A stretch of DNA of 23,768 bases from a virus. Positions within the stretch are counted from its first letter, which is position 1; each line of letters begins with the position of its first letter. The translations under genes and the position numbers were made by a program. Below the pieces are notes generated by a model. That model searched no databases and had not been told where the DNA came from. It saw only the letters and a program-made list of their open reading frames with translations. Of this stretch, positions 1 to 21,816 are shown in pieces. The stretch is from IMG/VR virus record IMGVR_UViG_3300046009_004042, positions 1 to 23,768 of that record; one strand, given 5' to 3'.

Positions 1-102
1 ACAACAGGAAACGTTGCAGCTGTAAAAGTTCAACCATTCCAAGTAATTAGTGTCACAGTAGGAACCGGTTCTGCAAATGGAACCGTCACTGTTAATTGGT
101 AA
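1..102 (+). CDS. C-terminal end of an unidentified beta-rich (probably virion) protein, 5' truncated
   Basis: An open frame enters from the left edge and stops at TAA 100-102, giving 33 residues. The piece is rich in Val, Thr and Gly with alternating hydrophobic residues and ends ...GTVTVNW. This is the look of a beta-sandwich or fibre-type C-terminus in a phage structural protein. A late promoter begins one base after its stop codon. The visible part is too short to name a family; structural protein is an inference from composition and from the late-gene context. Confidence 0.5.
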   Translation, partial: TTGNVAAVKVQPFQVISVTVGTGSANGTVTVNW

Positions 103-110
103 TATAAATA
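103..110 (+). promoter_or_regulatory. T4-type late promoter
   Basis: Exact TATAAATA, the T4 late-promoter octamer read by the gp55 sigma-like factor with gp33/gp45. It begins directly after the upstream stop codon and lies about 20 bases before the GGAGG ribosome site of the gene at 132. Confidence 0.75.
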
Positions 111-131: not shown

Positions 132-440
132 ATGCTTGTAGGTATAACTGACATTTATCTTTATACTGGTCTAACATCGACAGGAGGAAACAATTCTGCG
201 TTAGCTAAACAGTGGATGGATGATAATAATATTGTATATACTCATCTTTGGTATATGGACTCTGCTCAACATGCAAGCGTATTCGAAGCACTGAATACAT
301 GGAATCTGGGAACATTTTCAGATTTTCCATTTGTAATCTATGACGAAATACACGATGATTCTGAGACTACAGTAAGACAAGCTTTGATCGGTTTAAGCGA
401 AATTGAAAATAGCAATCTGGTAGAGCTATCTACTCTGTAG
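132..440 (+). CDS. Small protein with a glutaredoxin/thioredoxin-like pattern but no CxxC
   Basis: This 102-aa protein has a strong GGAGG site 6 bases before its ATG and its own late promoter. The predicted order is strand (residues 6-12), helix (22-33), strand (35-41), helix (45-56), then DFPFVIYDE (64-72) and a C-terminal helix (80-92). That order, with Pro66 where the thioredoxin cis-proline would fall, suggests a glutaredoxin-type fold. There is no cysteine at all in the protein, so a thiol-disulfide reaction is not possible. If the fold is right it is a binding or structural descendant. The fold is an inference from pattern only; it could equally be an unrelated small alpha/beta protein. 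It converges on the reverse-strand operon that ends at 472. Confidence 0.6.
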   Translation: MLVGITDIYLYTGLTSTGGNNSALAKQWMDDNNIVYTHLWYMDSAQHASVFEALNTWNLGTFSDFPFVIYDEIHDDSETTVRQALIGLSEIENSNLVELSTL

Positions 441-471
441 TATTACTATAAATGCAAAAGAATAAGTGTAG

Positions 472-1080
472 TTATTTTTTAATTTCTATATTACCAGAAA
501 TAGAAATGCGATGTTCGTCTGAAGTTTGAAACGGATATACCTGATGCTTGAGATAATTTGGAAACATAATAAGAGAACCTTCCCACGTCTTATCAATATC
601 TAGTTGAGTCGTACTGATTCCGCCATCGAATGAATTATAAATGAATTGAAACTTTGATGCTACTTTATAGTTTGATTCTCTTACATTTGGCATATTTAAT
701 TCCTCTTCTAAATCATAAGGAATTGCAATCCATATCACCCATGAAATATCTTTATGGTGAAAGTGTATTGGATTATATTCGTGTTTCTTTTGAAAATTTA
801 CCCATGCATTCGAATCAATAATATAATCTTCATTTTCATGAAAATTAAATCTTCTTCTATATTCAAAAAAAACTTGTTCTAAACAATTTCTAAACTGTCC
901 GTTAATAACGTATTCAAGTTCTGTTTCTAATTGCCCTGCTAAAAAGGCATTGTACTTTTTAGGTCTATTATCAACTTGCTTTTGCAAGTCTCGAGTCAAA
1001 TCAGCAAAAATAGAAGCAGGAATCTTTGTTTTAAGAACTCCTGGATTGTAAAGCTTTATTTCTGAAAATTCTAAGTTCAT
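472..1080 (-). CDS. Putative 2OG-Fe(II) oxygenase-like protein (PF13759-like)
   Basis: This 202-aa protein is the last gene of the reverse-strand operon, with GGTGA upstream of its ATG. The C-terminal half carries the double-stranded beta-helix signature of small phage oxygenases: IHFHHKD (residues 105-111, candidate metal ligands H106/H108), a strand WVIWIAI, and FPNYLKHQV (173-181, candidate ligand H179) followed by EHRISISGNI, where R191 is placed to bind the 2-oxoglutarate carboxylate. The family uses Fe(II), O2 and 2-oxoglutarate to hydroxylate a substrate; the substrate is unknown here. The first ligand motif is HxH(H)xxD rather than a plain HxD, so catalytic competence is less certain than for the gene at 2398. 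Sequence motifs are seen; the enzyme class is inferred from known families. Confidence 0.65.
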   Translation of the reverse strand: MNLEFSEIKLYNPGVLKTKIPASIFADLTRDLQKQVDNRPKKYNAFLAGQLETELEYVINGQFRNCLEQVFFEYRRRFNFHENEDYIIDSNAWVNFQKKHEYNPIHFHHKDISWVIWIAIPYDLEEELNMPNVRESNYKVASKFQFIYNSFDGGISTTQLDIDKTWEGSLIMFPNYLKHQVYPFQTSDEHRISISGNIEIKK

Positions 1081-1101
1081 AATTTCACCAATAATAATAT
1101 T

Positions 1102-1323
1102 TTAGTTAATAGTAATTGTAGAGGTGTCTCTACATATGCTCATAGTACCTTCGCAACAGATACTCCAATCCTCACCGGTTTTAGCTCCATGGCTTGATAC
1201 ATTAATGATGATATTTTTGCATAGATACTCTTTGTCACCTTCGAATACTCTCCAGACATGATCGTTAGTACCACGATTGGGTCGACCTCTTGATTGATTG
1301 AATCGTATACGAAAGTTAGGCAA
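1102..1323 (-). CDS. Small cysteine-containing protein of unknown function, TTG start
   Basis: This 73-aa frame overlaps the 3' end of the YkgJ-like gene by 8 bases. The only early start is TTG at 1323-1321; the first internal ATG is near the C-terminus, so translation is probably coupled to the upstream gene. The N-terminus is Arg/Asn rich (RIRFNQSRGRPNRG) and there are four Cys residues, two adjacent (CC) and two flanking. No family is recognised. Dense packing (21 bases to the next gene) and the uninterrupted frame favour a real gene, but the rare start and the short length leave doubt. Confidence 0.5.
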   Translation of the reverse strand: MPNFRIRFNQSRGRPNRGTNDHVWRVFEGDKEYLCKNIIINVSSHGAKTGEDWSICCEGTMSICRDTSTITIN

Positions 1324-1741
1324 TTTTAAACTCTGTTTGTAAAAACGTTTGGTTTCCTATTTTATTCCAGCCGCCATTTACCTGAAAAGCTAAATTTATA
1401 TTCTTATTCAAAGCATACATAATTACCCAACTTAAAACTTCAGCTGACATAGGAGCACCGGCTTCGACTATCTCGAGATGAGATAAATTTGCATCCGGGT
1501 GAGTCCGCCATTGCATGATTGTATTTGATTCATTCGGCTTCAACCATGCGGGTATATTTTCATCATCTAGCCATGAGCAAGTAAAAGATTGGCATGGATC
1601 TTTTGGTCGATCTTCATATATTGTACAACCAGTTGAACACACAAAGTGACACTTTCTTCCTGGCCAAAAATTATAACCTTTCGCGCTTCCCGTAAGCCAT
1701 CCATCACAACATTTTGTACATGTTCCACACTCTCGTGTCAT
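1316..1741 (-). CDS. YkgJ-type CxxCxxCC cysteine-cluster protein
   Basis: This 141-aa protein begins MTRECGTCTKCC, the CxxCxxCC signature of the YkgJ family (PF03692, annotated as zinc or iron-sulfur cluster binding). More cysteines follow at 31, 35, 39, 50 and 55, with CTIYEDRPKDPC matching the family's C.IYe.RP..C block. Nine cysteines lie in the first 55 residues; the rest (about 60-141) is an ordinary mixed alpha/beta tail. Family members are linked to metal handling or protein modification, but no reaction is established. Its ATG overlaps the stop of the upstream oxygenase gene (ATGA), so the two are translationally coupled. That is consistent with, but does not prove, a shared role around iron enzymes. 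Confidence 0.8.
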   Translation of the reverse strand: MTRECGTCTKCCDGWLTGSAKGYNFWPGRKCHFVCSTGCTIYEDRPKDPCQSFTCSWLDDENIPAWLKPNESNTIMQWRTHPDANLSHLEIVEAGAPMSAEVLSWVIMYALNKNINLAFQVNGGWNKIGNQTFLQTEFKIA

Positions 1742-2376
1742 ATAATATCTGCGGTAGCTGGATATTCGGGTACTACAACATCTGGTCGGGTTGATATATT
1801 CATATGAATAAACTTAAAGGGTTTAGTCGAAGAATTACGAGTAAAACTATGAGCTAACCAAGAGTTGGCAAATATTAATTGTCCGGGTTCAGGAGTAAAG
1901 TTTATTCTGTCCGAGGCCATTGATATTGTTGTTAAATCTTGTTCGTATAGCGGTGTCATTGTTTTCATGGGTCGAGGATCGTGAATCACCAATCTAGGAG
2001 GATCCTTTGGGCATTCAAAGAAATAAAATGCAACAAGCTGACAATCGTTATGACTATGATATTCCATTGAAGAATACTTATGATGTTCTTGGCTCCAACA
2101 TTCTCTTAGATATGTCTGCAGACCATTCATATTATAGCCTTGATCACTCAATAAATTCCAACTCGTGTTAAGAGTATATTGAATTAACTCCAGAAGTTCT
2201 TCTTCTGCAGAAACATCTGCATGAACAACAGGATATACTTCATTTATTTTGTTATTTTTACGCATAGCGCTCAACGACTTGTTGCATACGCTTCTTGCTG
2301 TTTCTAAAAAATTTGGTTTCATGATACTATATACAGGAGTGCTGAAATAGTGCCATTGGTCAAGTGTATCAGTCAT
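1738..2376 (-). CDS. Putative 2OG-Fe(II) oxygenase (PF13759-like)
   Basis: This 212-aa protein has the layout of small phage 2OG-Fe(II) oxygenases. MEYHSHNDCQLVAFYFFE (residues 104-121) gives the first metal-ligand motif (H107/H109/D111), then DPRP (133-136), then PGQLIFANSWLAHSF (164-178) with candidate ligand H176, and a basic residue (K186 or K188) before the final strand FKFIHMNIS. The family hydroxylates protein, nucleic-acid or small-molecule substrates; none can be assigned. No strong Shine-Dalgarno precedes the ATG. A one-mismatch late promoter lies about 20 bases upstream, at the end of the preceding gene. Its stop overlaps the YkgJ-like start. The class call is good, the substrate unknown. 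Confidence 0.75.
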   Translation of the reverse strand: MTDTLDQWHYFSTPVYSIMKPNFLETARSVCNKSLSAMRKNNKINEVYPVVHADVSAEEELLELIQYTLNTSWNLLSDQGYNMNGLQTYLRECWSQEHHKYSSMEYHSHNDCQLVAFYFFECPKDPPRLVIHDPRPMKTMTPLYEQDLTTISMASDRINFTPEPGQLIFANSWLAHSFTRNSSTKPFKFIHMNISTRPDVVVPEYPATADII

Positions 2377-2394
2377 AATATATTTCTACTACTA

Positions 2395-2402
2395 TATTTA
2401 TC
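2395..2402 (-). promoter_or_regulatory. Late-promoter variant inside the oxygenase operon
   Basis: The reverse strand reads GATAAATA, 7 of 8 matches to TATAAATA. It overlaps the stop codon of the gene at 2398 and lies about 20 bases before the ATG at 2376. One-mismatch octamers occur by chance in A+T-rich DNA, so support is position only. Confidence 0.3.
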
Positions 2403-2997
2403 TGAATGCTGGGCCAACTACCCAGATCACAATGCTTTTACGAATGCCTTTTTTGACTGGACTTACGCGATGTAATTGATAGGCCGGAAACGCTGCAACA
2501 AGCCCACGTTTTTTATCTACCACATCAGGAGTACTGCCGACTTTTATTTCTAAATTTCCGCCTTCGTAGTCTTTTGGATTTGATAGTTGTAAAACCATAC
2601 TAAATTTTCTTGGAACATTGTCTAACGATGAATTATCAATGTGCCAATCATAGTGTGCTTTCTCTTCACCATTATATATGGTGTATTGAAAGTCTTCATG
2701 AAATCCGGTTAAATCAAATCCATAAAAAGTACTATTCAGTTTGCGAGCAATCCATGCCATTCTATCATAGAACCAGGAAGTTTCATCATTTAAACTAATC
2801 CATGCTGTTTGAGAAGATCTGATTGCGAGGTCTACTACACCGTCAGGTCCAACTACAGCAGGATTCGAAACTAAATTATCTAGACAATATTTATCTATTC
2901 TATCTAGTTCTTCTTCAGTAAAACCAGAATCCCATATTACGTATGAACTGGTTGTTGCTTCAATCGGAGGACCTGGAGCAAAGATATAACTCGACAT
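2398..2997 (-). CDS. Prolyl-4-hydroxylase-type 2OG-Fe(II) oxygenase
   Basis: This 199-aa protein is the clearest oxygenase of the cluster. After an N-terminal helical region containing FTEEELDRID (26-35), it carries YTIYNGEEKAHYDWHID (residues 105-121) with the canonical HxD pair H119/D121, then YEGGNLEI (144-151), then FPAYQLHRVSPVKKGIRKSIVIWV with the distal ligand H176 and R186 ten residues later to bind 2-oxoglutarate. This is the P4Hc/PKHD-hydroxylase arrangement, complete in all catalytic positions. The expected reaction is Fe(II)- and 2OG-dependent hydroxylation of a protein side chain, possibly proline; the target is not known. The ATG shares one base with the upstream stop (TAATG). 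Confidence 0.85.
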   Translation of the reverse strand: MSSYIFAPGPPIEATTSSYVIWDSGFTEEELDRIDKYCLDNLVSNPAVVGPDGVVDLAIRSSQTAWISLNDETSWFYDRMAWIARKLNSTFYGFDLTGFHEDFQYTIYNGEEKAHYDWHIDNSSLDNVPRKFSMVLQLSNPKDYEGGNLEIKVGSTPDVVDKKRGLVAAFPAYQLHRVSPVKKGIRKSIVIWVVGPAFR

Positions 2998-3722
2998 TAT
3001 TTCAGCAACTTTTTGTGAAGTTTATCCTTATAAAGGGATTCATGAACAAAATTTCGAACTGTTCTCATTAAATGAGTACTTTGGGTTTCATTTTTATTAA
3101 AAGATCTACTTCTATGTTTTGGAAGTAAGTCATCTTTTTTAATTGGAATGACTTGTACGAGTGGCGTTCCTGCAGGAATAATGCCAACAAAATTTGGTTG
3201 ATTAAATGTAAATGGAAAATTCACATATTCTTGTTCGTAGTATGGATAATCGACAGTTCCAGAAAAACATGTGAATAGAGGATCTGGTCTATTTAATGGA
3301 GGAAGAAAAAGCAAAGAATATCCCGGAGGAGTTTTAAACATCCAATAATTCATAAACTTAATTGGCGGTTTCGGATCTATTGGATTTGGAGCTTTTTCTG
3401 AAGTAACTTGTTCTTTAATATGATTTTCAATCATAGGTCGATAAAAATTAGATTTATAAGTGATGCCAGAACAATTATGATTTGATGTAATCTGTACATC
3501 TGCTGCTAATGGGATAATATATCCCATTAGCATCGAATCTAAAAACGGCATACATCTTTTGATAGTTGAAGTTTTAAATCCTTGATCTCCGAGTTTTGGA
3601 GGAAGAGCTTTAAACCAGTCAGGAATATGTTTACTTGATGGGAATGGTGTTGGAATTACACCATAGTCTTCTTCAGCACATAAGAACTCAATTTCATTAT
3701 TTTTAAAAACACTCTTAAACAT
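2997..3722 (-). CDS. DUF6065-like conserved phage protein
   Basis: This 241-aa protein has a string of conserved-looking blocks: IPDWFKALPP near the N-terminus, TIKRCMPFLDSMLMGYIIPL, then MNYWMFKTPPGYSLLFLPPLNRPDPLF, VNFPFTFN and IIPAGTPLVQVIPIKK. I recognise this pattern from uncharacterised proteins of cyanophages and relatives; Pfam DUF6065 is the likely match but is from memory. The last block suggests a beta-rich fold. No catalytic motif is evident. The frame opens at GTG 3728, then ATG 3725 and ATG 3722. GAGG at 3731-3728 overlaps the GTG and sits 5 bases before the ATG at 3722, so I chose that start. It is coupled downstream to the hydroxylase gene by TAATG. Confidence 0.6.
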   Translation of the reverse strand: MFKSVFKNNEIEFLCAEEDYGVIPTPFPSSKHIPDWFKALPPKLGDQGFKTSTIKRCMPFLDSMLMGYIIPLAADVQITSNHNCSGITYKSNFYRPMIENHIKEQVTSEKAPNPIDPKPPIKFMNYWMFKTPPGYSLLFLPPLNRPDPLFTCFSGTVDYPYYEQEYVNFPFTFNQPNFVGIIPAGTPLVQVIPIKKDDLLPKHRSRSFNKNETQSTHLMRTVRNFVHESLYKDKLHKKLLK

Positions 3723-3729
3723 CATCACC

Positions 3730-3927
3730 TCAATTTTGATTATTACCTCGCTTATAATATATATTATTGTTTTCTACCTCAATTATACATCGAGCAACTT
3801 CTTTTTCTCCACGAAGTATATGATCATCATGAAGATTCAATTTTTCACAATTATTTATCCAATCGCGCTGATGCTCTGGTAATTTATCAAAACACTTCAT
3901 CACAAGTTTTAATCTTTGTTCATTCAT
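3730..3927 (-). CDS. Small unknown protein at the head of the oxygenase operon
   Basis: This 65-aa protein starts at ATG 3927, with an alternative TTG two codons upstream. It is mostly helical and charged in the first 40 residues (LKLVMKCFDKLPEHQRDWINNC), then becomes a short strand-like tail ending in KRGNNQN. Its stop is directly before the start region of the DUF6065-like gene, as expected for operon members. No family is recognised. No strong ribosome site is visible. Confidence 0.5.
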   Translation of the reverse strand: MNEQRLKLVMKCFDKLPEHQRDWINNCEKLNLHDDHILRGEKEVARCIIEVENNNIYYKRGNNQN

Positions 3928-3940
3928 TATCAAGTGACCG

Positions 3941-3997
3941 TCACCGCGGTGTTCGATACGGTAATACGTTTTTAATTCTAACGCTATTTGGTGTCAT
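3941..3997 (-). CDS. Possible 18-aa leader peptide
   Basis: ATG at 3997 opens MTPNSVRIKNVLPYRTPR, stopping at TGA 3943-3941. An AGGG ribosome-like sequence lies 6 bases upstream, and a perfect late promoter sits at 4029-4036, so this would be the first frame of the operon transcript. The peptide is basic. It may be a leader, a remnant of a larger gene's C-terminus, or chance; the overlapping palindromes GTGAC-C-GTCAC and CACCGCGGTG at its 3' end also hint at an RNA element. Confidence 0.3.
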   Translation of the reverse strand: MTPNSVRIKNVLPYRTPR

Positions 3998-4028
3998 TTG
4001 ATTCCCTATCCCACAGATTATCTATTTT

Positions 4029-4036
4029 TATTTATA
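4029..4036 (-). promoter_or_regulatory. T4-type late promoter for the reverse-strand oxygenase operon
   Basis: Exact TATAAATA on the reverse strand, the only perfect reverse-strand octamer found in the window. It lies upstream of the 18-aa frame and the genes running from 3927 to 472, and would make the whole operon a late transcription unit. Confidence 0.75.
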
Positions 4037-4068
4037 ATAATCATGACACCGGCACAACTGAATTTTAA

Positions 4069-4821
4069 TTAAACCCACTTCGTTCCGTGCTTCGAACTAT
4101 ATTTTGTTTCAGGATCGTATACAGCGAAATCTTCATAACGAGGATCTCCAGGTTCGGCTCTCTTGCCGATGCTATACTCGCCGATATGATTGACGATGTT
4201 ATGGCCTTCTTTAGTCTTGAGCTTACAAGTTTGCATGTTAAGTTGTTGCAATGATTTCGCGACAACATACTCGCTCAAGTTCTTTTCTCCTACTGATTCG
4301 GCATGTGGAAGATCTACAATTACTCGAGGAAATATACTCGCCAAACTCCAGAAATATGCCTCAGAAAGCTCGCCTCGATATTTCCCGAGTGTCACGTCGG
4401 TTTCATAAGCCTGTGTTTCTTCTTCAAAGTCATACCACTTTTGGCGTGTTAAACATACCTGAGAAATATTCATGTTATCTTGAAGAATCTGAATCATATC
4501 GAGTATCTTAATTGGATGATTGAATGTGACGTCGTCCTCTGACAGATACACATAATCATAATTTCGTTCTCTCAGGATTTCGAAGGTTCGATTCCATATG
4601 TATGGCAAACCCATATTTTGCTGATGCAAGAAGATCTCAGTAAAGCCAAAATTCTTGGCTAACTGAAACATCGTGCCATCATGACGACCTTTTGGCATAT
4701 CATCGAAAAAGATGCCTTCGACTTCACATCCTTCAAAATCTAACATCGCCCGCTGAGATTTCAATGTAGGAATCAAATACTCGAGTCGATTCGTCGACCA
4801 TATCACTTTACAAACTTTCAT
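4069..4821 (-). CDS. Putative glycosyltransferase (GT-A/GT2-like)
   Basis: This 250-aa protein begins with a Rossmann-type strand (KVCKVIWSTNRLEYLIPTL) typical of nucleotide-sugar transferases. It continues with HQQNMGLPYIWNRTFE (residues 66-81) and VYLSEDDVTF (91-100). The hydrophobic strand ending in EDD (95-97) is the GT-A position for the metal/nucleotide-sugar DxD motif. A later region, EAYFWSLASIFPRVI, resembles the acceptor-side segment of small phage glycosyltransferases. Expected activity is transfer of a sugar from a nucleotide donor to an unknown acceptor (protein, DNA or glycan). Its ATG overlaps the stop of the DUF6445-like gene (ATGA), so the two are coupled. The fold call is reasonable; donor and acceptor are unknown. 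Confidence 0.7.
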   Translation of the reverse strand: MKVCKVIWSTNRLEYLIPTLKSQRAMLDFEGCEVEGIFFDDMPKGRHDGTMFQLAKNFGFTEIFLHQQNMGLPYIWNRTFEILRERNYDYVYLSEDDVTFNHPIKILDMIQILQDNMNISQVCLTRQKWYDFEEETQAYETDVTLGKYRGELSEAYFWSLASIFPRVIVDLPHAESVGEKNLSEYVVAKSLQQLNMQTCKLKTKEGHNIVNHIGEYSIGKRAEPGDPRYEDFAVYDPETKYSSKHGTKWV

Positions 4822-5369
4822 CGCACATACTCCGTATCAAAGAAGAACGTCTGGAAAAGACGACCATCATATAAGTCTTTACCAAAATAATCTAAACTGG
4901 CATGGAAAAGATCACCGCTATAAAGAATCAATCGATTGTATTTGTTGCCTACGATATCGACTTTATCCCACTTAGTGTAATCATATGCCTCGTGTTCGTT
5001 TTTTGGAGCTCGGTACTCTCCAGTTTCCTTGTGTCGAAACATTCCTGTGCCAGCAGTATGCGGTGCATCTGGTGACAAGTAACATACGCCAGCCCACATA
5101 CTCGTATGATCGCAATGAATCCACGTTCTATCTAAAGCGGTAGCGTATTGAAAAGCTCCGGTATAACCCGAATCTTCGTGCCAATTGTTAATCTTTCCAA
5201 TTGGATTCATCCAATGTTGAATACAATCCTTGACGTCTTGCGTCATGAATGAAGGAGTTCGTTTTCCTGGATAGTTACCCGTAACGCTAAAGTCTTGAGT
5301 TAAAGCAAAGGCTCTGACTGCGTCGGGATTGGTATAAAAGTTATCAATAATCATTAAGTCAAGATTCAT
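4818..5369 (-). CDS. DUF6445-like oxygenase-fold protein
   Basis: This 183-aa protein begins MNLDLMIIDNFYTNPDAVRAFAL, the usual opening of the DUF6445 family. It continues RTWIHCDHTSMWAGVCYLSPDAP (residues 81-103) with an HxD-type pair H85/D87, then GTGMFRHKETG, then NRLILYSGDLFHASLDYFG (145-163) with H156, and GRLFQTFFFD with R170. H85/D87/H156/R170 match the iron and 2-oxoglutarate positions of cupin-type oxygenases. The family is a cupin-like relative of 2OG-Fe(II) enzymes whose substrate is not known. It is the first gene of a two-gene reverse-strand unit with the glycosyltransferase; AAAAGG lies about 10 bases before the ATG and a late-promoter variant is at 5403-5410. Confidence 0.75.
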   Translation of the reverse strand: MNLDLMIIDNFYTNPDAVRAFALTQDFSVTGNYPGKRTPSFMTQDVKDCIQHWMNPIGKINNWHEDSGYTGAFQYATALDRTWIHCDHTSMWAGVCYLSPDAPHTAGTGMFRHKETGEYRAPKNEHEAYDYTKWDKVDIVGNKYNRLILYSGDLFHASLDYFGKDLYDGRLFQTFFFDTEYVR

Positions 5370-5402
5370 TGTATATCTACCTTTTCACTGCTTTCATTAC
5401 AG

Positions 5403-5410
5403 TATTTATG
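5403..5410 (-). promoter_or_regulatory. Late-promoter variant for the DUF6445/glycosyltransferase unit
   Basis: The reverse strand reads CATAAATA (7 of 8), about 34 bases before the ATG at 5369, in the left arm of the 5401-5424 palindrome. No better candidate precedes this gene. Confidence 0.5.
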
Positions 5411-5414
5411 TTGT

Positions 5415-5422
5415 TATAAATA
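5415..5422 (+). promoter_or_regulatory. Distal late promoter upstream of gene 13
   Basis: Exact TATAAATA in the right arm of the palindrome, 121 bases before the gene 13 ATG. A second perfect octamer at 5517 is nearer, so this one would give a longer leader. Confidence 0.5.
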
Positions 5423-5516
5423 CTAAGTTAGAAAAGAATTTCCTTATAAAAGACATAAAGTCATTCTAACACATTTCTCTGTTGTTGTACACCAAAAAGT
5501 GATACAATAAGCATAT

Positions 5517-5524
5517 TATAAATA
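5517..5524 (+). promoter_or_regulatory. Proximal late promoter of gene 13
   Basis: Exact TATAAATA ending 19 bases before the gene 13 ATG, with ACGAGGAA as ribosome site in between. This is the usual T4 late-gene spacing. Confidence 0.8.
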
Positions 5525-5543
5525 GAAATAAACGAGGAATACG

Positions 5544-6287
5544 ATGGCAACTCCTACTACAAAAGCAACATTTAAAGAGTATTGCCTTCGGAAGCTCGGC
5601 AAACCAGTCATTGAAATTAATGTCGATGATGATCAAGTCGATGATCGTATCGACGAAGCGATTCGTTACTGGTATGACTATCACTTTGATGGTTCAGAAA
5701 AAATATACTATAAGCATGCTATCACAGAGACTGATGTCACAAACAAGTATATTACTCTTCCAGAAAATATCATCGGCGCAGTCAGCATCTTCTCGATGGG
5801 AGATCCTTCGATAAGCTCTGACGATCTTTTCAATATTCGTTATCAGATAGCTTTGAATGATATTTATACTCTCACAAACGTATCTCTTGTTCCATACTAT
5901 ATGGTCATGGAACATCTTGCGCTTATGACAGAACTTTTAGTCGGTAAACAACCGATTCGCTATTCTCGCCATAAAGATCGATTGCATGTTGATATGGATT
6001 GGAACACAGTTGCCGTCGGCTCATTCTTACTCGTAGAAGCTTACGAAGTCGTCGATCCAGAAACTTATACGGATGCATATAACGATCGTTGGCTTCAAAA
6101 CTATGCCACGACTTTGATTAAAGAACAGTGGGGTTCGAATCTTACGAAGTTTACTGGTATGACTTTACCCGGTGGAGTACAGTTTAATGGAGAGAAAATC
6201 TATAATGATGCGGTAGATGCAAGAACTAAGATGGAACAAGAAATGATTTCATCTTATTCCCTTCCGGTTCTTGATATGATAGGTTAA
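5544..6287 (+). CDS. 13: Neck protein gp13
   Basis: This 247-aa protein is shorter than T4 gp13 (about 309 aa), as is usual in marine T4-likes. It opens with TFKEYCLRKLGKPVIEINVDDDQVDDRIDEAIRYWYDYHFDG, the conserved head-to-tail connector N-terminus, and has the aromatic and helical stretches (NDRWLQNYATTLIKEQWGSNLTKF) of the family. gp13 with gp14 closes the head-tail vertex after DNA packaging and lets tails attach. It leads the 13-14-15-16-17 block. ACGAGGAA precedes the ATG. The family is known well; the assignment rests on sequence pattern and gene order together. Confidence 0.9.
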   Translation: MATPTTKATFKEYCLRKLGKPVIEINVDDDQVDDRIDEAIRYWYDYHFDGSEKIYYKHAITETDVTNKYITLPENIIGAVSIFSMGDPSISSDDLFNIRYQIALNDIYTLTNVSLVPYYMVMEHLALMTELLVGKQPIRYSRHKDRLHVDMDWNTVAVGSFLLVEAYEVVDPETYTDAYNDRWLQNYATTLIKEQWGSNLTKFTGMTLPGGVQFNGEKIYNDAVDARTKMEQEMISSYSLPVLDMIG

Positions 6288-6291
6288 CTCT

Positions 6292-7020
6292 GTGACAACC
6301 AATTTCTATTTCAACAACTTTACGAATAGTCAAGAGCAGATCTTAATTGAAGATCTGGTTCTCGAGTCTATTCAAATTTATGGGCATGATGTGTTCTACT
6401 GTCCTCGTACACTCGTTGAAAAAGACGAAGTTTACGAAGAAGATGCATTATCACAGTACAACAGTTCTTACTTAATTGACATGTATATTCGTAGCTATGA
6501 GAGTTATGAAGGTGACGGACAATTCTTGTCGAAGTTTGGTCTTGAAATCAGAGATCAGGTTACATTTACCGTGTCCGTTCGTAACTTTATGAATGAGATT
6601 GGCTCAGTAGAAATGATCGATCGTCCTCAAGAAGGCGATCTCATTTATCTTGCCATGGCAGATCGTTTGATGTATGTCAAATACGTCAATAAAACTCCTG
6701 TCTTCTATCAGATGGGCGCTATTCAGATGTATGATCTCGTTTGCGAGATGTTTGAATATAGCAGTGAGCAGTTAAATACTGGCATTCAGGCAATTGATAG
6801 TATTGAGAAATTAAGTAGTCTCAGCCTCGATGCCTTTGGAATCTTGACGAATGACGATTTACTTCTGGTTACTCAAGAAGGAAATCCAATTATACAAGGC
6901 AGCTATGATTTTGGTACACAAGCCGGAGATGCATTCGAAGATAATATGGAGTTTGAAACAGGTGGCGACAGTATTCTTGACTGGACACAAGTCGATCCGT
7001 TTAGTGAAGGACAAGTTTGA
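6292..7020 (+). CDS. 14: Neck protein gp14
   Basis: This 242-aa protein (T4 gp14 about 256 aa) starts at GTG four bases after the gene 13 stop, with AGG eight bases upstream; no in-frame ATG near the start competes. The N-terminal block NFYFNNFTNSQEQILIEDLVLESIQIYGHDVFYCPR is characteristic of gp14. The body (FGLEIRDQVTFTVSVRNF, RPQEGDLIYLAMADRLMYVKYV) matches the neck beta-barrel region. It forms a ring at the head-tail joint with gp13. In T4 the next gene is 15; here a homing endonuclease cassette is inserted right after the stop. Confidence 0.9.
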   Translation: MTTNFYFNNFTNSQEQILIEDLVLESIQIYGHDVFYCPRTLVEKDEVYEEDALSQYNSSYLIDMYIRSYESYEGDGQFLSKFGLEIRDQVTFTVSVRNFMNEIGSVEMIDRPQEGDLIYLAMADRLMYVKYVNKTPVFYQMGAIQMYDLVCEMFEYSSEQLNTGIQAIDSIEKLSSLSLDAFGILTNDDLLLVTQEGNPIIQGSYDFGTQAGDAFEDNMEFETGGDSILDWTQVDPFSEGQV

Positions 7021-7032
7021 AATACACACTTT

Positions 7033-7040
7033 TATAAATA
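7033..7040 (+). promoter_or_regulatory. Late promoter of the first endonuclease cassette
   Basis: Exact TATAAATA, 18 bases before the endonuclease ATG. Its last bases form part of the 5' arm of the hairpin at 7037-7056. It may also serve the downstream genes 15-17, which have no promoter of their own that I can see. Confidence 0.75.
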
Positions 7041-7056
7041 CTCTTAAAGGAGTATT
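7037..7056 (+). promoter_or_regulatory. Hairpin masking the endonuclease ribosome-binding site
   Basis: AATACTC (7037-7043), loop TTAAAG, GAGTATT (7050-7056). The 3' arm contains the GAG of the AAAGGAG ribosome site (7047-7052), six bases before the ATG. A transcript starting at the late promoter (expected start about 7046) would lack the 5' arm; a read-through transcript from genes 13-14 would keep it. The same plan is found at 21067-21106. Confidence 0.6.
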
Positions 7057-7058
7057 AT

Positions 7059-7739
7059 ATGGAAAAGTACGGGATTGTTTATATTTGGAGAGATAGTAAA
7101 CACAAAAGATATTATATTGGTGCGCATTGGGGCACAGAAAATGATGGTTATATTTGCAGTTCTCCTTGGATGAAACGAGCTTATAAGTTAAGGCCTAATG
7201 ATTTTAAGAGAAGAATATTAACTAGAGTATATACAAATAAACAAGAAATGTTTGATGAAGAAGCCAAATGGCAAAACTTTATTAAAGATGAAGAATTGCG
7301 GATAAGATATTATAATATAAGAAGACATGGAGATAAACACTGGTCATCAAATCCTAATACTTCCTTAACAGTAAAAGAAAAAATATCTAAAGCTAATAAA
7401 GGAAAGCCATCGCCTAATAAAGGTAAAAATCTTTCTGAACAAACAAAAGAAAAAATAAGTAATAATACTAAACGTGGCATGGCCAAAATGGATAAAAGTT
7501 ACCGTTGGGATAAAGACTATAGAAAAAAGATAAGTATTAATGGTAAACGCCTTCAAAAAGAAGGCAAAATAGGAATGTTAGGTAAAGTGCATTCTAACAA
7601 AACAAAAGAAAAAATGAGTGTATCTCAATCAGGATCAAATAATCCAATGTATAATAAACCCCATGATGAAGAAGCAAAAAGAAAGATTTCTGAAACATCA
7701 AAATTGATGTGGGCTAAACGTCGCATGGAGAAGTTGTAA
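7059..7739 (+). CDS. GIY-YIG free-standing homing endonuclease (cassette 1)
   Basis: This 226-aa protein has GIVYIWRDSKHKRYYIG (residues 5-21), the GIY-YIG nuclease core. The expected catalytic Glu lies in FDEEAKW and the conserved Asn in RYYNIRR. The remainder is Lys-rich with several NUMOD3-like DNA-binding repeats (KEKISKANKGK, KEKISNNTKRG, KEKMSVSQSG, KRKISETSK). It is a Seg/I-TevI relative that would cut endonuclease-free alleles near genes 14/15 so that repair copies the cassette. No intron is present: genes 14 and 15 are each whole. The stop overlaps the gene 15 ATG (TAATG). A/T-richer codon use than its neighbours supports transfer. It is paralogous to the gene at 21106. Confidence 0.9.
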   Translation: MEKYGIVYIWRDSKHKRYYIGAHWGTENDGYICSSPWMKRAYKLRPNDFKRRILTRVYTNKQEMFDEEAKWQNFIKDEELRIRYYNIRRHGDKHWSSNPNTSLTVKEKISKANKGKPSPNKGKNLSEQTKEKISNNTKRGMAKMDKSYRWDKDYRKKISINGKRLQKEGKIGMLGKVHSNKTKEKMSVSQSGSNNPMYNKPHDEEAKRKISETSKLMWAKRRMEKL

Positions 7740-8569
7740 TGTTTGGAAGAACATGGAATCACGACAGTTTAAGAAAATACATCATCGTATTTGGCACTGT
7801 CTTTAACGACATCTATATCAATCGCCTCAGCTCGACCGGAGAAGTACTTCAGACTCTGAAAGTTCCTTTGACTTACGGTCCAAAAGACAAAATACTTTCG
7901 AGACTTGAACAAAGTCCGAGACTCGATAATCAAGTTGGCATTATTCTTCCTCGTATTTCTTTTGAAATGACGACTTTAGAATATGATTCTACTCGTAAAC
8001 TAAATACACTCAATAAGTTGACGAAGCAATCTGCGACCGCGGGCACTGATGACGAAGTCAAGTATCAGTATCAACCTGTTCCATATGACATGCAATTTGA
8101 GATGAATATCTTAGTGAAGAATGCAGAAGATGGCACACGAATCGTAGAACAGATCGTTCCTTACTTCACTCCTGACTTTACAGTGAGTGTAAATCTTGTT
8201 CCTGAAGTCGACAGCGCTCGCGACATTCCTATTATTTTAAATAGCATCTCTTCTCAAGATCAATACGAAGGCAGCTTTGAGCAAAGAAGAGCGCTGATAT
8301 GGACACTTAATTTTACTCTAAAGGGCTATCTATATGGTCCTACAAAGAAATCAAAACTGATTAAATATGCTGAAACAACGTTCAGGCTTCCTGAAGATGT
8401 AGCCACAGGAAACACTGATAATACCGCAAATACGATAGTCGTGGCTTCGAGACCCGGACTTACGGCGAACGGAGAACCTACTACCAACACCGCTTTAAGT
8501 ATTTCATATGAAGATATTATAAGTACAGATAACTATAGTATTATCAATACAATTACTGAGAATATCTAA
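7739..8569 (+). CDS. 15: Tail terminator / proximal sheath stabiliser gp15
   Basis: This 276-aa protein is close to T4 gp15 (272 aa). It begins MFGRTWNHDSLRKYIIVFGTVFNDIYINR, with the VPLTYGPKDKILSRL block that is diagnostic of gp15, and continues with FEMNILVKNAEDGTRIVEQIVPYFTPDFTVSVNLVPE. gp15 forms the hexameric ring that caps the finished sheath and tube and docks to the neck. The ATG overlaps the endonuclease stop, so the insertion left the start intact but changed which upstream gene it is coupled to. Its own stop overlaps the gene 16 start (TAATG). Confidence 0.92.
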   Translation: MFGRTWNHDSLRKYIIVFGTVFNDIYINRLSSTGEVLQTLKVPLTYGPKDKILSRLEQSPRLDNQVGIILPRISFEMTTLEYDSTRKLNTLNKLTKQSATAGTDDEVKYQYQPVPYDMQFEMNILVKNAEDGTRIVEQIVPYFTPDFTVSVNLVPEVDSARDIPIILNSISSQDQYEGSFEQRRALIWTLNFTLKGYLYGPTKKSKLIKYAETTFRLPEDVATGNTDNTANTIVVASRPGLTANGEPTTNTALSISYEDIISTDNYSIINTITENI

Positions 8570-21105: not shown

Positions 21106-21816
21106 ATGCCTAGTAAATATGGATTTGTTTATATTTGGTACGATCGTAAACACAAAAGATATTATATTGGTTGCCATTGGGGATCAGTAGATGACAGGTA
21201 TATATGTTCGTCTCGATGGATGAGAAAAGCATATGCTAGAAGACCTCAAGATTTTAAAAGAAAAATATTAGAAAATAATATTGAAGACCGATCAGCATTA
21301 TATGACCGCGAACAAAAATGGTTAAATATGATTAAACCCGAAGAAAGAAAGATTCGATACTACAATCTTCATCTTTCTTCTAAAAAACCGTGGCATCAAT
21401 ATGATGAACATATTAAAACAGTAGGTCAAAAAATATCTAAAGCCAAAAAAGGTGTAAAGACTGGACCAATGACTGAAGAACGTCGACGTAATATAAGTGA
21501 AGCCAAAAAGAAAGGATTTGCAGATCGAGGAGGAATGACTGACGAGCATAAAAATGCTTTAATAGGAATTAAGAAACCTCAACATACTGAAGAGTGGAAA
21601 AAACAAAATAGTGAAAGAATCAAAGAACAGTGGGCTAATGGCACACGAAAAAAAACATCTAAATCAAAATCAGTATCTATGACAAAAGAAGAACAAGGCA
21701 AATTGTGTTCTAACCAATTAAAATCAAGATGGGCAGATCCAGTGTGGGCAAAAAACCAGCGGGCTAAACTAAAAGAATCGTGGAAAATCAGAAAATCATA
21801 TATAAATAATACATAA
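21106..21816 (+). CDS. GIY-YIG free-standing homing endonuclease (cassette 2)
   Basis: This 236-aa protein is paralogous to the gene at 7059: YGFVYIWYDRKHKRYYIGCHWG (residues 5-26) aligns almost residue for residue, as do the YICSSRWMRKAY, PQDFKRKIL and IRYYN blocks. The catalytic Glu should be in YDREQKW and the Asn in RYYN. The Lys-rich C-terminal part carries NUMOD3-like repeats (GQKISKAKKG, RRNISEAKKKG, HKNALIGIKK). It would promote its own spread into the site after gene 23 in related phages. A 26-base stretch is identical between the two genes (7096-7121 and 21146-21171). A/T-rich codon use contrasts sharply with gene 23. T4 has the GIY-YIG gene segD in the broader 23-uvsW interval (from memory). 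Confidence 0.9.
   Translation: MPSKYGFVYIWYDRKHKRYYIGCHWGSVDDRYICSSRWMRKAYARRPQDFKRKILENNIEDRSALYDREQKWLNMIKPEERKIRYYNLHLSSKKPWHQYDEHIKTVGQKISKAKKGVKTGPMTEERRRNISEAKKKGFADRGGMTDEHKNALIGIKKPQHTEEWKKQNSERIKEQWANGTRKKTSKSKSVSMTKEEQGKLCSNQLKSRWADPVWAKNQRAKLKESWKIRKSYINNT
21801..21808 (+). promoter_or_regulatory. Possible late promoter at the end of endonuclease 2
   Basis: Exact TATAAATA inside the last codons of the endonuclease gene. A transcript from here would meet the terminator about 65 bases later without crossing a gene, so it is either a chance match or the promoter of a short RNA. Confidence 0.3.

Follow-up and report, generated by a model that had tools for sequence, protein, structure and literature searches.

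The window analysed here is a linear virus record of 23.8 kb (IMG/VR record IMGVR_UViG_3300046009_004042, positions 1 to 23,768), and the phage from which it derives is, judged by its sequence, a T4-like myovirus. Matches of its terminase gene to those of cyanophages reach 57%, UvsY was found, and the names gp13 to gp23 follow the order of the genes. The stretch from the end of a tail-fibre gene at the left edge to gp13 (5544) contains nine minus-strand open reading frames (ORFs), labelled I, H, G, F, E, D, C, B and A from right to left, that is, in the order of transcription (Table 1). Neighbouring ORFs overlap by 1-8 bp at I/H, F/E, D/C and C/B. The original prediction described this region as a reverse-strand island of four oxygenase-type genes (A, D, E and I) with a CxxCxxCC protein (C), a DUF6065-like protein (F) and a glycosyltransferase-like protein (H). 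All of these ORFs are present and all are on the minus strand, together with the small ORFs B and G. The island is thus real; the motif ascribed to its oxygenases was only partly found, and the interpretation placed on it is supported in part.

Oxygenases and partner proteins of the island

Three of the four oxygenases are recognized by Pfam. A and D belong to PF13759 (7e-12 and 2e-8, both above the Pfam cut-off) and E belongs to PF13640 (2e-13; 51.5 bits against a cut-off of 27), with PKHD-type hydroxylases (PiuC, 3dkq) as its nearest solved structures. The fourth, I, falls in DUF6445 (PF20043, 2e-15), a Pfam family without an assigned function. An AlphaFold2 model of I (predicted local distance difference test score, pLDDT, 88.6) has the prolyl-hydroxylase fold of 2-oxoglutarate (2OG) oxygenases, and its top structural matches are HIF prolyl hydroxylases, OGFOD1 and a Pseudomonas P4H (Z 14.4-13.3). 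The match to the Trichoplax PHD has a VIA Z of 14.4 and a root-mean-square deviation (rmsd) of 2.9 over 154 residues, and that to HygX a Foldseek E of 6e-6. On these models, DUF6445 is very probably a family of 2OG oxygenases of the prolyl-hydroxylase type, and the predicted count of four is right because the model of I has this fold. The PHROG-derived names 'minor coat protein', 'DNA endonuclease V' and 'ferrochelatase' (phrog_1644, phrog_2297, phrog_274 and phrog_3531) land on DUF6445 and PF13640-type oxygenases and have propagated into RefSeq cyanophage records; they look misleading, and the 'minor coat protein' label for DUF6445 looks wrong.

The His/Asp-His-Arg pattern that was expected in all four proteins is present in E (H119xD121, H176 and R186, invariant in 22/22 homologues) and in I (H85xD87, H156 and R170, invariant in 19/19). 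A instead contains HxH at the position of the HxD/E of the facial triad (H106, H108, H179 and R191, found in 22/22 homologues), and D contains HxH and H176, with Phe187 where 19 of the 22 homologues have the 2OG-binding Arg. As the PF13759 cut-off is exceeded despite the HxH, A is classed from its sequence as a member of this family with a non-canonical second ligand position, while D is atypical and may be inactive or altered. If HxH is accepted, a full ligand set can be recognized in three of the four oxygenases. The number of oxygenases is not as unusual as first supposed, since T4-like cyanophages in culture usually have 1 to 5 (PMC3037559) and S-SCSM1 has 24 (PMC9602691).

The partner proteins are less easily classified. 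C has eight cysteines that are invariant in 17/17 homologues, and the resemblance to YkgJ noted earlier holds for the CxxCxxCC motif; membership of that family does not, as neither Pfam nor NCBIfam gave a match at E<=1. Checked for a GT-A domain, H has a weak match to phrog_2456 (8.5e-5) covering residues 62-99 only, and no Pfam or PDB match. The F protein of the window matches DUF6065 (PF19541) weakly (0.023), yet 32 of the 35 members of its family match PF19541, and the description of F as DUF6065-like is upheld. Among cultured phages its best match is the DUF6065 protein of haloviruses, HSTV-2 (L081) and others of the HF type, at up to 47%.

In the model of F (pLDDT 68), all matches shown have the dUTPase/dCTP-deaminase fold (one is a dCTP deaminase), the best with Z 9.4, rmsd 4.3 over 128 and a Foldseek E of 5e-3. 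Comparison with dUTPase profiles (hhalign) gave a weak match (probability 25%, E 8e-4; control 0.06%) on motifs 3 and 4. In the alignments only segments resembling these two motifs are seen; motifs 2 (RSG) and 5 (GGFGSTG) are absent. Because these catalytic motifs are missing, F is not called a dUTPase, and the likeness is one of fold. DUF6065 is accordingly predicted to have a dUTPase-like fold, a reading less certain than that of DUF6445.

Table 1. Features of the oxygenase island and its left flank in the window
Feature	Position	Strand	Remarks
Gly-X-Y (collagen-like) tail-fibre protein, C-terminal end	1..102	+	Cut at window edge; translation ends VQPFQVISVTVGTGSANGTVTVNW, then stop
Late-type promoter motif TATAAATA	103..110	+	Upstream of 132-440 ORF
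Small ORF, family (z) accompanying Gly-rich fibre	132..440	+	Homologues adjoin fibre in L004, L006
Unit 1 block G-F-E-D-C-B-A	470..3947	-	Inverted relative to L003-L005
A: PF13759 2OG-Fe(II)-type oxygenase	472..1080	-	HxH...H...R
B: small conserved ORF	1102..1323	-	8-bp overlap with C
C: CxxCxxCC putative metal-binding (YkgJ-like) protein	1316..1741	-	phrog_9155
D: PF13759 oxygenase-like	1738..2376	-	HxH...H, Phe for Arg; atypical
E: PF13640 PKHD/P4H-type 2OG oxygenase	2398..2997	-	Full HxD...H...R
F: DUF6065 family	2997..3728	-	phrog_7084; predicted dUTPase-like fold
G: small ORF	3730..3933	-	Start overlaps fibre gene in relatives
Tail-fibre gene remnant	3934..4037	-	Promoter 4029-4036, first codons (MTPNSVRIKN...), last codons
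H: glycosyltransferase-like	4069..4821	-	EDDV motif; second gene of unit 2
I: DUF6445, predicted prolyl-hydroxylase-fold 2OG oxygenase	4818..5369	-	HxD...H...R; first in unit 2

Modular organization and linkage to tail-fibre genes

The island consists of two modules, unit 2 (I followed by H) and unit 1 (G-F-E-D-C-B-A), and both the gene content and the synteny in relatives (compared sequences carry L numbers) fit the two coupled units that had been proposed. The I-H pair occurs in about 60 IMG/VR contigs of the window clade, in which I is mostly 80-97% identical, and in further contigs with I at 68-71% and H at about 40% identity. The I-H overlap measures 4 bp at 99 of the 121 loci, redundant ones included. 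Nearly always, unit 2 lies next to gp13 and points away from it. The region downstream of H is variable: some relatives have unit 1 there, in one orientation or the other, some have F and E with further oxygenases, and some have sulfotransferase and sugar-nucleotide genes. Because the content after H varies in this way among relatives, unit 1 is a swappable cassette. In L109 and L114, H is followed by genes for a PfkB-cytidylyltransferase fusion, a cupin-like protein, an epimerase, a methyltransferase and a sulfotransferase, which on sequence form an alternative sugar cassette in the unit 1 slot. The original prediction would have been refuted by independent occurrence of its genes, and this is half the case: the units move and swap independently, but the genes within each stay together. 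A single operon of four oxygenases was rejected because the two modules invert and swap separately, as was chance clustering, since many unrelated contigs show the same families side by side.

In L003-L005 and L006, unit 1 begins inside the 3' end of a co-directional gene for a Gly-X-Y (GXY) fibre. In L004, for example, the fibre gene (3831-7802) and G (7796-7999) overlap by 7 bp, and 1044 of the 1323 fibre residues lie in GXY runs, the longest of 96 triplets. The Pfam collagen family (PF01391) matches the L248 fibre with 19.2 bits, below the cut-off of 27.2, and does not match the L006 fibre; a polyglycine-II fold is an alternative to collagen for the neighbouring fibre. The same order, fibre-G-F-E, is found in L240, which is derived from a metagenome-assembled genome (MAG), with an F identity of 66%. 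This phage-like block (5235-7315, with masked N) stands in a Dehalococcoidia MAG chromosome and may represent either a prophage or phage sequence that was binned wrongly.

The window has the same block in the opposite orientation. Positions 470-3947 are 95.6-95.8% identical to L003-L005 over 3478 bp, inverted, and some 20 nt of 3' fibre-gene sequence remain in the block. Ahead of unit 1 stand a late promoter and the opening codons of a fibre gene, and window 3971-4037 matches L004 1413-1484 at 78%. The left edge of the window (1-102) is the end of a fibre of the same family as the one linked to unit 1, and contig L002, which is identical to the window and extends 1056 bp further upstream, shows there no fewer than 385 aa of a Gly-rich protein. 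Because the inverted block keeps the fibre end, the promoter and the first fibre codons, the arrangement in the window is a derived one, produced by inversion of a cassette coupled to a fibre gene. L001 and L002, both 100% identical to the window, have the same arrangement, which makes an assembly error confined to this record unlikely. A search for inverted repeats able to drive programmed inversion found only short imperfect ones. The predicted late-type promoters are borne out, as TATAAATA is seen 12 times in the window against 1.7 expected, and the copy just upstream of unit 1 is consistent with late expression.

A small protein accompanies these fibres in the window (132-440), L004 (3429-3827), L006 (5983-6324) and L248 (4140-4466). 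It is cysteine-poor and glutaredoxin-like by look, with no family match for the L006 member and none convincing for that of L248. In L248, a protein resembling by eye the 132-440 product in look and size directly precedes the fibre.

The same families are also found near fibres outside the clade. Contigs with a different tail gene set have the order Gly-rich fibre, small ORF, I, F, E and D (the L007-L049 group) or Gly-rich fibre, small ORF, F and E (L025-L038 and L249). In L248 a GXY fibre gene overlaps F, with E a few genes downstream, and in L016-L080 an E-A-F block adjoins a convergent tail-collar fibre gene. In about 40 contigs of the type of a 128-kb relative, E, F, another F (F2) and a glycosyltransferase matching the GlcNAc transferase family PF11397 (4e-26) come after the gene for a Pro/Gly-rich repeat protein. 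PF11397 is named for the enzyme acting on the hydroxyproline of Skp1, to which it adds the sugar. A Gly-rich ORF lies within 2.5 kb upstream in 10 of 20 non-redundant F loci against 26 of 155 other genes, a comparison that is only supportive because operon mates are counted in that background. In cyanophage DSL-LC02, a DUF6445 gene stands with an annotated mannosyltransferase and an FkbM methyltransferase between tail-fibre and collagen-like genes. In syn9 (L083 1-13000), gp41-gp60 include two tryptophan halogenases, at least seven oxygenases, DUF6445 proteins and the DUF6065-like gp43, possibly a halogenating version of the same chemistry.

The position of proline in the fibres next to E is distinctive. 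Within the GXY runs of five non-redundant E-adjacent fibres (L002, L004, L006, L025 and L248), proline occupies position Y 56 times and position X 5 times, while in other collagen-like phage proteins of the same data it occupies X 203 times and Y 12 times. Over whole proteins, proline is followed by glycine in 142 of 290 cases in the E-adjacent fibres versus 42 of 446 in the others, counts that are inflated by high glycine content. Phage collagens have been described as having proline in the X position, a bias explained by the lack in bacteria and viruses of enzymes for Y-hydroxylation (Ghosh et al., PMC3368898). The contrast fits a prolyl hydroxylase coupled to the fibre.

Possible function and competing explanations

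Because in relatives the block directly follows and overlaps a collagen-like fibre gene, the fibre is the likely target, and the island probably decorates this host-contacting structure. The fuller proposal, a late-expressed tail-fibre modification locus with hydroxylation and glycosylation divided between two modules, is given about an even chance. Unit 1 would have evolved behind a collagen-like Gly-X-Y tail-fibre gene, translationally coupled to it, and the fibre and unit 1 would be produced late in infection. E, helped by F, would hydroxylate the fibre before or during trimer assembly, most likely on proline before glycine; F may be an enzyme that binds nucleotides, or it may assist the fibre as a chaperone or trimeric partner. 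A and D could carry out further oxidations, or altered chemistry, and C may supply or handle iron. I would hydroxylate, and H would add a sugar to the hydroxyl made by I, giving a fibre that might be stiffer, sugar-coated or antigenically varied. It is suggested more tentatively, at rather less than even odds, that tailed phages infecting aquatic bacteria carry mobile cassettes in which a P4H/PKHD hydroxylase, partnered by a DUF6065 protein, hydroxylates the Y-prolines of a co-transcribed Gly-X-Y or Pro-Gly-repeat tail fibre, and a PF11397 glycosyltransferase or H then glycosylates the hydroxyprolines.

Several observations weigh against fibre modification. Among solved structures, E is closest to PKHD/PiuC hydroxylases and not to collagen P4Hs; the 2OG-binding Arg is missing from D; the match of H to glycosyltransferases is weak; and unit 2 adjoins gp13, not a fibre gene. 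Half of the non-redundant F loci (10/20) have no upstream Gly-rich ORF, and in dozens of records of haloarchaeal viruses DUF6065 lies next to thymidylate synthase, with no oxygenases seen nearby. The proline signature, apart from the inflation of its Pro-Gly counts, comes from few independent lineages in which the E-adjacent Gly fibres may be one family, and the L008-type fibre shows no Y-proline bias (PG 0.18).

It is possible to read the fibre linkage differently, as mere sharing of a hypervariable region by enzymes that modify the host surface (O-chain or lipopolysaccharide) or build a small surface glycan blocking superinfection. Close relatives have sugar-nucleotide genes (PfkB plus cytidylyltransferase, epimerase) and sulfotransferases after H, and the pelagimyophage hypervariable region joins tail fibres and glycosyltransferases, with O-chain change proposed (PMC7029224). 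However, a start of unit 1 inside the fibre gene in several lineages, and its recurrence behind fibres in unrelated phages, are more specific than a shared hotspot, and most unit 1 oxygenases resemble protein hydroxylases; a host-surface role is considered unlikely. A metabolic role, through 2-oxoglutarate drawdown or host nitrogen or translation signalling, has been anticipated in the 2OG/NtcA modulation that Sullivan et al. proposed for cyanophage 2OG oxygenases (PMC3037559), and the P. putida P4H whose structure was determined with EF-Tu is among the matches to the model of I (Z about 14; PMC7864055), so that EF-Tu hydroxylation as by the Pseudomonas PHD can be envisaged. Drawdown needs neither many divergent oxygenases nor partners such as F, C and glycosyltransferases, and late promoters, coupling to a fibre and fibre linkage in unrelated phages also make such a role distinctly unlikely.

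A tailoring cluster for a peptide or small molecule, with a diffusible product, would resemble the halogenase/oxygenase cluster of syn9 and Syn10, in which the syn9 genes described above are found and the Syn10 halogenase VirX1 acts on small aromatics (PMC8407142). With no halogenase, carrier protein, synthetase or precursor peptide seen in units 1 and 2, and with the coupling to fibre genes, this seems highly unlikely. The original prediction had left open a virion protein, DNA or a surface glycan as substrate. A virion protein or surface glycan fits the evidence, and the fibre overlap in relatives, the remnant at the border of unit 1 and the occurrence of E and F behind fibres elsewhere point to a single target, a Gly-rich or collagen-like tail fibre. 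DNA base hypermodification by hydroxylation and glucosylation would draw on the pairing of oxygenase and glycosyltransferase known in TET/JBP systems, and on the predicted dUTPase-like fold of DUF6065 and its position beside thymidylate synthase in haloviruses. But the Pfam scan (E<=1) gave no TET/JBP or AlkB family match, the block contains no DNA-metabolism gene, the promoter motif is late, and the linkage is to fibre genes, not replication genes; this substrate was rejected for want of domain support and is barely credible.

Relation to known systems

The nearest viral precedent is the collagen modification of mimivirus, which encodes a Gly-X-Y structural protein (the L71 collagen) together with a 2OG hydroxylase and glycosyltransferase that serve it (the L230 lysyl hydroxylase/glucosyltransferase, and R699; PMC9546862). 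The present system, known by its genes, differs in belonging to a bacterial tailed phage and a tail fibre, with separate PKHD/PHD-type hydroxylases, proline before glycine in place of lysine, and an additional DUF6065 protein. Relatives of the window encode, side by side, a prolyl-hydroxylase fold and a PF11397 GlcNAc transferase, as in the Skp1 pathway of Dictyostelium and Toxoplasma (the prolyl hydroxylase PhyA, then the GlcNAc transferase Gnt1), whereas the window itself has H and no PF11397 gene within 23.8 kb, and its putative target is a fibre. The syn9/Syn10 cluster likewise groups PF13759, PF13640, DUF6445 and DUF6065 in a T4-like phage, but has halogenases and, over the 16.6 kb that were read, lacks a Gly-rich fibre, and a role in 2OG/nitrogen metabolism was proposed there. 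The prophage proteins EPclA/B are also Gly-X-Y phage fibres, with proline in X and no hydroxylase nearby in the published account (PMC3368898), unlike the Y-proline and coupled hydroxylase-type gene seen here. Finally, the host-recognition cluster of pelagimyophages also brings glycosyltransferases and tail fibres together in a hypervariable region (PMC7029224). In the present case a single fibre family has oxygenases coupled to it, and these are met again beyond that phage group.

The presence of many 2OG oxygenases in individual marine T4-like phages is already known, and they have been read as metabolic genes (PMC3037559, PMC9602691). Literature searches found no paper naming DUF6065 or DUF6445, and nothing on phage collagen-like tail fibres or virions with prolyl hydroxylase or hydroxylation. 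As far as these searches go, what is new is the organization as a cassette, the coupling to fibres in several phage groups, the signature of proline in Y and the predicted folds of DUF6445 and DUF6065, and the models give both families a first structural reading. Multiple 2OG oxygenases are among the commonest unexplained genes in marine T4-like phages, and their link to fibres supplies a concrete candidate substrate and an assayable peptide. If the proposal is true, collagen-type hydroxylation and glycosylation would occur in bacterial viruses, contradicting a published statement by which collagens of bacteria and viruses are not so modified, and would offer a mechanism for fibre stiffness or receptor variation.

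Elsewhere in the window, two related proteins with GIY-YIG-like starts (7059-7739 and 21106-21816) are probably homing endonucleases. The latter is inserted after gp23. The former carries NUMOD3 (7e-23) and sits between gp14 and gp15; its gene is not present in L004, where the flanking genes abut.

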